Shown piece after piece: positions 48,901-55,334 of a stretch of DNA of 64,000 nt (position 1 is its first letter; every line of letters begins with the position of its first letter). The stretch covers positions 1-64,000 of the forward strand of contig JAAWJI010000012.1 of the NCBI GenBank assembly GCA_022796795.1. Direction: 5' to 3'. Under the pieces are notes generated by a model. That model had not been told where the DNA came from and did no database searches. It worked only from the letters and a program-made list of their open reading frames with translations. The stretch comes from Lachnospiraceae bacterium (lineage in GTDB: Bacteria; Bacillota; Clostridia; Lachnospirales; Lachnospiraceae). The position numbers and the translations under genes were made by a program.

Positions 48901-49131
48901 TTAGAGCCGATCAATGAATTCAGATGGAGTAAACACTGCTATGTTGTTTTTTACAAAATCTTTTACGTTTCTTGTGATAATATAATCCGCATGTACATGT
49001 TCAGCAGTTACATTCTGAACAGCATCCTCAAAATCATCCCAACCTAATTCCGAAGCTCTGTGTTTCCTTTTAATATAAACATTTTTGATCCCTATATTCC
49101 AAAATGGCAGTAGTTTGGAATTGGAATACAA
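48901..49131 (-). pseudogene. PIN-domain protein C-terminal fragment
   Basis: GWDDFEDAVQNVTAEHVHADYIITRNVKDFVKNNIAVFTPSEFI matches PIN C-terminal half; N-terminal half absent. Confidence 0.75.
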
Positions 49132-49236
49132 AAATCCGATTGCGCAAAATTACTCTGGTGGATATAATAAAGACATGCCAGTTTCATAGGAAGTGCTTGT
49201 ACTGGGATTACTGATTGTGAAGGAGGGGTGTAAATC

Positions 49237-50574
49237 GTGCAAAGGCTGGTGATTCATAAACTAGGTCCCATTGAACAGTGTGAGCTGGAATGTACACAGT
49301 TTATGACGTTTACAGGCTTTCAGGCATCGGGAAAGAGTACCATTGCGAAAGCGCTTTATTATTTTAGGACAATAAAAGAAGATATTGTGGAGCTTGCAAA
49401 GGCACAGGCTATGTATCTTACTTCATCCAACGAGTTGAGGGATGAGGCTGATGTATGTTACGGAAGTAATCTCAGAAAAGCATTAGAAAACGGTTTGCGT
49501 GAGAAATTTTTACGGACATTTGGTTCGTCATGGGGGATGTCGAATGAAATGTATATGGAATATCATTTTACTGAGACATGCTTTGTACAGATTTCCCTAA
49601 AAAGTGACAAAGAGTATGCGGCTCCTAATTATATATGGATAACACTGAGCGACGATATAAAAAAATTTTTGCGAAAAAAAAATAATGGTCTGTCTGCTAC
49701 GCTTCTGGGAATTGCCGAGGATGAGCTGAGAAGATTCCGAGAGGAATTGGACCGCCTATTTGAGGACTGCTGTTCCGTTGTATATATCCCGGCAGGGCGC
49801 AGTATGATAACCCTGCTGTCGCAGCAGCTCAGTTATATTTACGCTACCATGGATGATATGCAAAAGCGGTCTTTGGATACCTGTACCAAGGACTACCTGG
49901 AGCGAATCCTGCGTTTAAAGCCGGAGTTCTCAGAAGGGCTGCAGGGGCTGACAGCGTATTCTGCCGGAAAAGCTTATCTGCCGCAGAAGCTTATAAGGCA
50001 GGCTTTAGATTTGATCAAAAAAATATTGCGTGGAACATATCGATATCATAATGGCGAGGAGCAGATTATTCTGGGGGATGGAAAATATGTAAAGATAAAT
50101 TTTTCTTCCTCCGGACAACAGGAATGTGTGTGGATTCTGAATCTTTTATTTTACTATTTGCTACAGCAAAGGAAAATTTTATTTATTATCGAGGAGCCGG
50201 AGTCTCATTTATTTCCGGAATCACAAAAATATATTACAGAATTGATTGCGCTTGTGAGGAACTGCGGACACTCGATTGTGGTGACCACACATAGCCCCTA
50301 TGTGCTGGGAACGCTGAATAATTTATTGTATGCTCAGTCTGTCCAGGCACAAGACGAAAAAAGGGCAGATGAAATTATTTCGAAAGCTTTATGGCTGGAC
50401 GACGGAAGCTTTGACGCGTGGTTTGTGAAGGATGGGACGATTGAGAACTGTATGGATACGGAAGTTCATATGATTCAGAATGAACGGATTGATGAAATTT
50501 CAAAGGTTATTAATCAGGATTTTGATGAGCTTTTGGAATTGTGGAATACAGAAGAGGAAAGTGAGGCGCTCTGA
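49237..50574 (+). CDS. ABC/SMC-type AAA ATPase (defence-type)
   Basis: Walker A TGFQASGKSTIAKAL; signature SSSGQQE; Walker B ILFIIEEPESHLFPE; H-loop VTTHSPYVLGTL; SD AGGAGGGG before GTG start. Confidence 0.9.
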   Translation: MQRLVIHKLGPIEQCELECTQFMTFTGFQASGKSTIAKALYYFRTIKEDIVELAKAQAMYLTSSNELRDEADVCYGSNLRKALENGLREKFLRTFGSSWGMSNEMYMEYHFTETCFVQISLKSDKEYAAPNYIWITLSDDIKKFLRKKNNGLSATLLGIAEDELRRFREELDRLFEDCCSVVYIPAGRSMITLLSQQLSYIYATMDDMQKRSLDTCTKDYLERILRLKPEFSEGLQGLTAYSAGKAYLPQKLIRQALDLIKKILRGTYRYHNGEEQIILGDGKYVKINFSSSGQQECVWILNLLFYYLLQQRKILFIIEEPESHLFPESQKYITELIALVRNCGHSIVVTTHSPYVLGTLNNLLYAQSVQAQDEKRADEIISKALWLDDGSFDAWFVKDGTIENCMDTEVHMIQNERIDEISKVINQDFDELLELWNTEEESEAL

Positions 50575-50996
50575 TGCCCTTAAAAGGGTTTAAATCATTG
50601 TGTGATAGAAATGCTGCGCAGATTGTGTCCCGGGACAAGGGAAATCCACAATACCATAAGGGAATCAATCCTGCCAGGGCCTGTGTAACACACTATAAAA
50701 TTGATGGAACGGTAATGAAAGAAGGAGATAGATGTGATTATCTGTTGTTGAATGAGGAACGACAGATTGCATATTTGATTGAATTAAAGGGTTCAGATTT
50801 GGTCAAGGCTGCTCGGCAGCTAGAGGCTACGGAAAAGAAACTGCGGCAAGTTTTGTCAGGGTATAGCTTGCAATATCGCATTGTTGCCAACAAATGCAAA
50901 ACCCAGGAGATTCGTTCTGTTGAGTACAGAAAATATCAAATTCGCTGGAAAGGGAAACTGATACAGAGGACAGGGTTTATAGAAGAAAATATTTAA
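50574..50996 (+). CDS. small PD-(D/E)XK-like nuclease candidate, coupled to ATPase
   Basis: GDRCDYLLLNEERQIAYLIELKGSD: D-x15-E-L-K arrangement; TGATG stop/start overlap with ATPase. Confidence 0.65.
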   Translation: MPLKGFKSLCDRNAAQIVSRDKGNPQYHKGINPARACVTHYKIDGTVMKEGDRCDYLLLNEERQIAYLIELKGSDLVKAARQLEATEKKLRQVLSGYSLQYRIVANKCKTQEIRSVEYRKYQIRWKGKLIQRTGFIEENI

Positions 50997-52952: not shown

Positions 52953-53287
52953 TTATAAAGTTTCTGGCTCTGGTACAGCTTCTTCAAATAGCCGCATCAA
53001 ATCATGATTTGCACCTATATTTGTGACTTCAAAATGGTTTAAGCAGGCAGAAAGCCATAACAGATCCCTGCTCATTTCACGGATTAAGTCAAAAATCTCC
53101 AAATCCGTCGTCTTATATTGGGAATGATAACCTGAATACTGCTCATGCGAAAAAAACTTCTAAGAAGGTAATCCCGTATCTTTCCATATGCGCCGTTGGG
53201 ATTGGTTTCTGAAAAATGCTCCTTTAAATCCTTTACCCGAAGGTCAAAATACAATGCTTTATAATGTCTTGCTTCTCTCTTTGCCAT
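52953..53287 (-). pseudogene. VapD family protein, frameshifted at a 7-nt homopolymer (53150-53156)
   Basis: MAKREARHYKALYFDLRVKDLKEHFSETNPNGAYGKIRDYLLRSFF then -1 frame SHEQYSGYHSQYKTTDLEIFDLIREMSRDLLWLSACLNHFEVTNIGANHDLMRLFEEAVPEPETL*. Confidence 0.75.
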
Positions 53288-53621
53288 TATGCCACACTTA
53301 ACCTTTTTGTATAATGGTATAGAACATCTTCTACAATATAATCATCTTCGCTTTCCCCATCATCACTATTGTACCACACCCATTTTGTCACATAATCCAT
53401 AAACCACGCCTTTTCCCGTAAGGATGTAATGATGCTGCCAAAGGCCCCATAATCTTTGGGGTTTCCATTACCGGTAAAGCACATCGTTCCATCAGCACTC
53501 TGCATCTGGTTCAGTTTATATCGGGAAAAAGCCTGTCCTAATGCCTGATAGATGCTCTCAACACGATATTTTTTTCTTCACGAATCTTAACTTCATCCAA
53601 TTTTATTTCTAACTTCAGCAT
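53287..53621 (-). pseudogene. VapD partner ORF (unknown, ~110 aa), frameshifted at a 7-nt homopolymer (53569-53575)
   Basis: MLKLEIKLDEVKIREEK(K)YRVESIYQALGQAFSRYKLNQMQSADGTMCFTGNGNPKDYGAFGSIITSLREKAWFMDYVTKWVWYNSDDGESEDDYIVEDVLYHYTKRLSVA*; TAATG overlap with vapD. Confidence 0.65.
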
Positions 53622-53776: not shown

Positions 53777-55334
53777 ATGCTGGAGATTAGAGACAGAAAA
53801 ATCATATACCGCTATGACGCGGAAGAAGTGTGGATCGAGGCCTGGGGACGGGATGCCCTTCGGGTCCGGGCCACAAAGGAACGGTAGATGCCGAAAGAGA
53901 ACTGGGCACTGCGCGAGCCGGAGGGACATCACGACACGGAGCAGGCAGACGAACCCCAGAGCTTGCGTGGAAACGGGGAGGCAGACGGCAGGGCGTCGGA
54001 AGTTCAGACTGTTTACACAGAGAAGGGGGCCCAGATCACAAATGGCAGGATTTGGGCAAAGATCACAAGACTGGGAAAGATTACCGTCTATCACAGAGAT
54101 GGCAGAATCCTTCTGGAGGAATACTGCAGAAACCGCAGGGATCTTTTGGACCCCAAATGCAGCGCTATCGAGGTGGAGGCCCGGGAGCTTAGGCCTACGC
54201 CAGGAGGAGATTATCACCTGACTATGCGGTTTGAGTCCCAGGACCCGGAAGAAAAGATCTATGGCATGGGGCAATATCAGCAGCCCTATCTGAACCTGAA
54301 GGGCTTGGACCTTGAGCTGGCCCACCGGAATTCCCAGGCCAGCGTGCCCTTTGCCATTTCCTCCCTGGGATATGGATTTTTGTGGAACAATCCGGCAGTG
54401 GGCCGGGCTGTATTGGGAAAAAATATCATGAGCTTTGAGGCCTATTCCACAAAGGCCCTGGATTATTGGGTGGTAGCCGGGGATTCGCCGGCTCAGATTG
54501 AGGAAGCCTACGCTGCGGTTACCGGTACGGTTCCCATGATGCCGGAATACGTTCTGGGCTTCTGGCAGTGCAAGCTTCGCTATCAAACTCAGGAGGAGCT
54601 TTTGGAGGTGGCTCGGGAGTATGTGTGGGGCAAGGCAAAGAAAAATTATTATGACAAGGGAATTCGGGTGTTCTGGCTGGATGAGGCGGAGCCGGAGTAC
54701 AGCGTCTACGATTTCGACATTTACCGGTATTACAGGGGCACCAATCTGCAGGTGGGAAATCTCTATCCTGTGGAGTATGCCCGGGCCTTCTATGAAGGTA
54801 TGGAGCAGGAGGGGCAGGGACAGATTGTGAATCTCCTGCGCTGCGCTTGGGCAGGCAGTCAGAAATATGGGGCCCTGGTGTGGTCCGGGGATATTGCCTC
54901 AAGCTTTGAGAGCATGCGGAACCAGCTGGCAGCAGGTCTGAATATGGGCCTTGCGGGTATTCCATGGTGGACTACGGATATCGGCGGCTTCCACGGCGGA
55001 AATCCGGAAGATCCCGCATTCCGGGAACTGTTTGCCCGCTGGTTTGCCTGGGGAGCCTTCTGCCCGGTCATGCGGCTTCACGGAGACCGGGAGCCCAGAC
55101 AGCCCCAGCAGGGTACCACAGGAGGCCCATGAAAAGGGCACCCCGGATGTGCTGGTGGCGCCTGTGCTCTATGCCGGACAAAGAAGCCGAAGTGTCTATC
55201 TGCCGAAGGGAGAAATCTGGGTGGAATTTGAGACCGGGAAGGAATATGAGGGTGGACAGAGAGTGGAGGTGGAAGCGCCCCTAGATCGTATTCCTGTGTT
55301 TTTGCGGAAGGGAGGCCGCACAGCCATACTGTAA
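53777..55334 (+). pseudogene. GH31 glycoside hydrolase pseudogene (nonsense codon plus several internal deletions)
   Basis: GH31 blocks KIYGMGQYQQPYLNLKG, PEYVLGFWQCKLRYQTQEELLEVAREY|VWGKAKKNYYDKGIRVFWLDEAEPEY, GIPWWTTDIGGFHGG, RLHGDREP; in-frame TAG at 53885; junctions near 54612, 55124 and 55144. Confidence 0.88.

Follow-up and report, generated by a model that had tools for sequence, protein, structure and literature searches.

A paired OLD/ABC-type ATPase and predicted small nuclease in a Lachnospiraceae bacterium, a probable member of a Bacillota/Bacteroidota branch of WonAB-type systems

The gene pair and its predicted products

The window analyzed here, 64,000 nucleotides of contig JAAWJI010000012.1 from a gut Lachnospiraceae bacterium (assembly GCA_022796795.1, positions 1 to 64,000), contains a compact pair of genes, A and B, the first encoding an ABC-type ATPase and the second a small protein with a predicted PD-(D/E)XK-type nuclease fold (Table 1), which we relate below to the phage defense system WonAB. 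An earlier reading of the window, made from the sequence alone, had placed both open reading frames (ORFs) correctly as to coordinates, strand and length, including the single base (TGATG) shared by the stop codon of gene A (50572–50574), which has a GTG start at 49237, and the ATG of gene B at 50574. It had also described the pair as more AT-rich than its surroundings, and indeed its G+C content is ~0.39–0.44 compared to ~0.50–0.56 on both flanks. As A and B follow one another in this order in relatives at 55–80% identity, several of which share the one-base overlap too, and as the ratio of nonsynonymous to synonymous substitution rates (dN/dS) is ~0.06–0.11 for A and B in comparisons with unsaturated synonymous sites (dS), the pair is plainly genuine coding sequence and both genes are under purifying selection. 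Profile searches found A and B adjacent in dozens of other genomes, far above chance. There was no promoter or terminator beyond shuffle expectation, and no tRNA or PF00589 phage integrase was found in the window.

Table 1. Features of the gene pair, with positions in the window
Feature	Position	Strand	Basis
Putative ribosome-binding site of gene A, AAGGAGG	49220–49226	+	sequence, 10 bases 5' of GTG
Gene A, 445-residue OLD/ABC-type ATPase (WonA-like)	49237–50574	+	ORF list, Pfam, PADLOC, alignments
Walker A GFQASGKST, A residues 27–35; K33 corresponds to WonA K34	49315–49341	+	
YIPAGRSM, A residues 183–190; R188 invariant in 30 relatives, corresponds by position to WonA R182	49783–49806	+	
ABC signature SSGQQE, A residues 291–296	50107–50124	+	
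Walker B FIIEEPE, A residues 316–322; E320 corresponds to WonA E300	50182–50202	+	
H-loop TTHSPY, A residues 350–355; H352 corresponds to WonA H333	50284–50301	+	
C-terminal extension of A, residues 405–435, CMDxEIHMIQNERIDEISKVIN...	50449–50541	+	conservation
Gene B, 140-residue small PD-(D/E)XK-type nuclease, predicted (WonB-like)	50574–50996	+	alignments, model, profile comparison
C54-D55 of B, predicted first catalytic acid	50733–50738	+	invariant in 26 relatives
E70-L71-K72 of B, (D/E)xK motif; K72 corresponds to WonB K71	50781–50789	+	E70 and K72 invariant in 26 relatives
Q82 of B, helix glutamine after ExK	50817–50819	+	invariant in 26 relatives

The gene A product carries the full ABC set of Walker A, signature, Walker B and H-loop motifs, all as listed in the sequence-only reading, and matched Pfam AAA_15 (E = 5.7e-21). 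Among the PADLOC models it scored against AriA (8.4e-26), PD-T4-4_A (3.5e-21, residues 3–439 of 445) and, in a partial match, PDC-M29A (3.6e-20), all of these scores being far below those of true members. An alignment of 30 relatives, which includes PD-T4-4 and Menshen NsnB proteins, showed residues G27, K33, R188, P321, E322, Q330, T351, H352 and S353 to be invariant. The AlphaFold2 model of A was of moderate confidence (predicted local distance difference test score, pLDDT, of 76); it matched the solved structures of PtuA, AriA and Rad50 and has no long coiled coil, the latter point agreeing with what had been read from the sequence. By analogy with WonA (PMC12137116), the conserved C-terminal extension of A is a candidate docking surface for B.

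Searches with B alone against Pfam, PADLOC, NCBIfam, PHROGs and PDB sequences yielded nothing above threshold, and a profile of 26 relatives likewise found no match among PDB sequences. Across these 26 aligned relatives, at identities down to ~18–20%, C54, D55, E70, K72 and Q82 are invariant; the aspartate and ELK motif proposed earlier is present, at a spacing of D55-x14-E70-L-K72 rather than the x15 that had been counted. An AlphaFold2 model of B computed with 15 relatives (pLDDT 92.8, predicted template modeling score 0.88) has D55 at the start of one strand and E70-x-K72 at the end of the next, followed by a helix bearing Q82, an order matching that of the PD-(D/E)XK core. Structural matches to this model were mostly PD-(D/E)XK nucleases (N.BspD6I, Hjc, SdaI, EndoMS and T7 endonuclease I), that to the nickase N.BspD6I having a probability of 0.99–1.00 and a template modeling score (TM) of ~0.45. 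On the strength of the model a PD-(D/E)XK-type fold is well supported for B, in line with the restriction-nuclease fold that had been suggested as a check on the 140-residue protein.

Linkage and distribution of the pair

Using B-only searches we identified 20 loci on GTDB contigs, with 7 more loci in the family, 4 in the phylum and 14 in Bacteroidota. Gene A lies directly upstream of B in ~42 of these 45 loci (a few A copies being broken or partial), and the exceptions are one locus whose contig begins within B (L019) and two fragments (L033 and L034). A few copies are frameshifted or broken (L016, L018, L045 and L061). One copy, 74% identical to that of the window, is in an unannotated entry labelled Bacteriophage sp. 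(L024, MT836320.1), where the neighboring ORFs are bacterial-looking, suggesting a bacterial contig. The trees of A and B are in agreement, pointing to coevolution of the two genes: in a mirror-tree comparison the distances of A and B were correlated with r = 0.86 over 37 pairs and r = 0.96 over the 22 closest, and 0 of 2000 permutations gave a value as high.

The pair occurs in both Bacillota and Bacteroidota. In the family 8 of 299 genomes carry it, and in the genus 1 of 4; for the phylum the figure is 5 of 399 genomes, and for Bacteroidota, with all subtypes counted, 15 of 396. Its flanking genes differ in every relative and are mostly ordinary chromosomal genes, and in an empty-site comparison three relatives from the genus have the homolog of the gene downstream of the pair in unrelated surroundings. 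Due to this patchy occurrence and these unlike flanks, we conclude that the pair is an accessory unit, frequently moved or lost, which is neither housekeeping nor bound to one island. The sequence-only reading had described an ABC ATPase with a small PD-(D/E)XK-like partner in an accessory stretch and had likened the two to a recurring defense design. Our searches bear this out, the two genes staying together in relatives, being akin to known defense systems and occurring beyond housekeeping contexts; for the anti-plasmid role it also entertained, we found no evidence.

Relationship to WonAB and other ATPase–nuclease systems

WonAB was described by Adams et al. (2025) from the WASA-1 prophage of V. 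cholerae; it consists of WonA (AWB73975.1), an OLD-type ABC ATPase in which K34, R182, E300 and H333 are required, and WonB (AWB73976.1), a 16.1-kDa PD-(D/E)xK protein in which K71 is required. It brings about abortive infection through a translation stop, and both genes and their active sites are required (PMC12137116). WonAB is closely related to predicted operons of an OLD-ABC ATPase and a novel restriction endonuclease (REase) and resembles PD-T4-4 (PMC12137116). The former operon type was predicted in silico by Krishnan et al. (2020), with an example in Anaerovibrio lipolyticus (Anaerovibrio pair SHI83489.1/SHI83462.1), as cited in PMC12137116, where the OLD-ABC ATPase + Novel REase class is also said to hold all WonAB homologs. 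By its architecture and its relation to WonAB we assign the window pair to this group of OLD-ABC ATPases with a restriction-fold nuclease, and thus to one broad family with WonAB, so that it is very probably a phage defense system of a known kind.

As in WonAB, the gene for the ATPase is followed directly, in a two-gene operon, by that for a small PD-(D/E)xK effector of ~140 residues with a D and an ExK motif, the lysine of which is residue 71 in WonB and 72 in B; K33, R188, E320 and H352 of A are, by motif and position, the equivalents of the four required WonA residues. The published quantitative PCR primers for wonAB translate to PQANGK, TTVSKD and CDWILS, which resemble FQASGK (Walker A), QIVSRD and CDYLLL (with D55) of the pair, only CDWILS being a striking match taken alone (4 of 500 shuffles). 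Exact scans of IMG/VR with the wonA and wonB primers were empty. Searching viral contigs with the A profile, we identified full-length WonAB-like pairs with the same geometry as the window pair (K33, R175–183, E292–307 and H327–342 in the ATPase; K67–82 in the B protein, with CDW or CDY and then ELKG), and this geometry brackets that of WonAB to within one residue. In an hhalign comparison over ~117 columns, the window-clade B profile matched that of these viral pairs at 98.9%, a value that rose to 99.7% once more distant relatives were included. Three single groups emerge in the A tree, namely the window clade (support 99), the WonAB-like viral pairs joined by one Bacteroidota relative (95), and PD-T4-4 (99). 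The first two lie closer together than either does to PD-T4-4, several long branches making the deeper order unsure. The window branch differs from WonAB in lying in Bacillota and Bacteroidota, in chromosomal and solitary positions, and A is only ~25–28% identical to its counterparts in the WonAB-like viral pairs.

Other systems share parts of this design. The PADLOC candidate system PDC-M29 has the same two-gene layout; several of the Bacteroidota relatives found with the B profile are PDC-M29, and distant relatives match PDC-M29B, whereas B of the window had no match to PDC-M29B in PADLOC. A PDC-M29-like pair is also present on a Bacteroides finegoldii plasmid (L038:2212–3913), in a polysaccharide locus whose glycosyltransferase genes flank it on both sides. 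PARIS AriAB, Septu PtuAB, Gabija and RloAB likewise combine an ABC/OLD-type ATPase with a nuclease effector, and A resembles AriA and PtuA; however, their effectors are TOPRIM, HNH, TOPRIM-fused and RloB, respectively, and B matches none of these. PARIS was rejected as B has no AriB match and its predicted PD-(D/E)XK-type fold is not the TOPRIM/DUF4435 of AriB, and Septu as B has no HNH match and a fold different from PtuB. Gabija does not fit an A protein that ends after its ABC domain, without a TOPRIM, and is partnered by B rather than a UvrD-like helicase, nor RloAB a B protein without an RloB match in Pfam or PADLOC.

Because of the shared geometry, the B-profile match and the A tree, and because the effectors of the other systems were not found, the window clade is, as judged from sequence, of the same kind as WonAB and not PD-T4-4 (weighed below), PARIS, Septu, Gabija or RloAB. 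By analogy, we consider it highly likely that the pair is a WonAB-type defense module, and probable that it represents a branch, in Bacillota and Bacteroidota, of abortive-infection systems of the WonAB type. Several points weigh against this interpretation. The link to WonAB runs through residue numbers from the literature, peptides encoded by the primers and relatives that are WonAB-like, rather than the WonA and WonB sequences themselves, and WonAB homologs have been reported mainly from Gram-negative bacteria (PMC12137116). Phage defense by the Bacillota/Bacteroidota branch is argued from the behavior of WonAB, and the choice of RNA over DNA as the substrate of B is by analogy only. Most of the relatives' pairs are solitary among unrelated chromosomal genes, without defense islands or prophages, and close relatives were not found in IMG/VR, scans of its viral contigs with the B profiles giving zero confirmed cases. 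Finally, the best Foldseek match to B had an E-value of 5e-3 (TM ~0.45), with zero matches at E < 1e-3.

The pair looks unnamed because A scores in PADLOC as no more than a distant relative and B is not recognized there, and it had been called possibly undescribed on first reading; this part of the earlier description falls, as the architecture and family are known from the OLD-ABC ATPase + REase group and from WonAB in 2025, and PD-T4-4, of 2022, has the same layout. What is new is a member in a Bacillota/Bacteroidota branch that is not called by PADLOC-DB 2.0.0. So far tested in a single cholera prophage, the WonAB-type design would reach through gut Clostridia and Bacteroidales in the form of one coherent and long-lived branch, and the Gram-positive homolog set of about 20 pairs, at roughly 40–80% identity, could serve outside V. 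cholerae in work on the trigger of WonA and the RNA or DNA target of WonB.

Proposed mechanism, alternatives and minor observations

By analogy with WonAB, sensing and activation are most likely the task of A, and B would be the effector, with abortive infection as the outcome. In the mechanism that we consider most likely, A would dimerize in the manner of ABC proteins, creating two composite ATP sites, and hold B on its C-terminal extension. On sensing a phage cue A would release or activate B, which would most likely cut an RNA required for translation, either tRNA or rRNA, the growth of the cell then stopping before phage particles form. An RNA target appears likelier than DNA because other ABC-ATPase/nuclease pairs, PARIS (through AriB) and Septu, cut tRNA; as B resembles DNA enzymes in fold, we lean only slightly toward RNA as its substrate.

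A sensor-effector pair in which B is instead a DNA nuclease, destroying incoming phage or plasmid DNA or nicking host DNA once A is triggered in a restriction-like or Gabija-like manner, would account for the top fold matches of B (N.BspD6I, Hjc, EndoMS and T7 endonuclease I) and for its weak drift to HSDR_N in Pfam, and a modification enzyme would be dispensable if A gates B. We consider this rather unlikely, given that overproduced WonB halted translation and left chromosomal DNA intact, that phage DNA still replicated in the presence of WonAB (PMC12137116), and that the related pairs mentioned above cut tRNA. The overlapping genes, small effector, solitary chromosomal sites and broken copies in some genomes would also suit a toxin-antitoxin module whose A protein holds a toxic B in check and which persists as an addiction or stability element. 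However, the first gene of the two, A, encodes a complete ABC ATPase, and WonB is toxic only alongside WonA that is present and active, ruling out plain sequestration (PMC12137116), all of which makes such a module quite improbable.

There is little chance that the pair is a Rad50/RecF-like ATPase and nuclease with a repair or housekeeping function and no defense role; while the A model also resembles Rad50 and the neighbors are mostly ordinary metabolic genes, the pair is confined to a few genomes of its family and genus, with flanks unlike in every relative and with decayed copies, and its nearest named relatives are all defense proteins. Another alternative is that the pair is PD-T4-4 itself, a system described from E. 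coli in 2022 (PMC9519451), with B diverged beyond the PADLOC models. PD-T4-4 also joins an ATPase to a PD-(D/E)XK-type partner, A is homologous to PD-T4-4_A over its full length (see the E-value and range above), and PD-T4-4_B shares the order CD...(D/E)xK...Q with B. In contrast, PD-T4-4_B is ~210 residues long with a DQK motif, the true PD-T4-4 pairs (L035, L036 and L069) fall in a clade separate from that of A (support 99), and B had no match to PD-T4-4_B in PADLOC at E 1; a profile comparison between the two covered 47 columns only, at 90.8%, against the ~117 columns at 98.9–99.7% for the WonAB-like pairs. We give this identity scant credence.

Within the WonAB-type reading that we prefer, B proteins of the window clade have two blocks that are missing from the WonAB-like proteins of viral contigs, one near-invariant at the C terminus (RIVANKCKTQEI) and one at the N terminus (S-x-D-x4-Q-x-H). 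Because of these blocks and the solitary chromosomal sites, the Bacillota/Bacteroidota clade could sense and cut something other than WonAB does, and we raise as a tentative, somewhat doubtful possibility that it forms a separate subtype, with a trigger and a nuclease substrate of its own.

Further ATPase–partner pairs were seen on IMG/VR contigs. Those of L087–L111 (e.g., L100:1981–3913) have a ~442-residue ATPase with GENDTGKS, near HEC-02A and PD-T4-4_A in PADLOC, and a 205-residue partner whose SPDALFL...YFIEFKEG reads like a PD-(D/E)XK motif and which has no PADLOC or significant Pfam match. The ATPases of L086:3001–4904 and L089:3001–4893 cluster on the tree, that of L086 being PDC-M29A-like, and their partner is a different protein of ~200 residues (CEYVVFPI...FIETKYA; ILIELKYS) that no PADLOC model matches, an apparent swap of the nuclease partner.

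Elsewhere in the window, the truncated PIN gene noted earlier beside the pair is a 76-residue remnant (48901–49131, minus strand) matching only the C-terminal third of PIN_3, at an E-value (6.5e-5) below the Pfam cut-off. Of the VapD module that had been proposed, a VapD-like N-terminus (MAKREARHYKALYFDLR...) can be seen at 53084–53505 (minus strand); it stops after ~42 residues with a plausible continuation in another frame, so that the gene looks frameshifted, and neither short ORF has a Pfam match. A glycosyl hydrolase family 31 gene (53888–55334, plus strand) stops inside its barrel domain at 55132, and as its C-terminal part is in another frame (54951–55334), this gene also looks broken.
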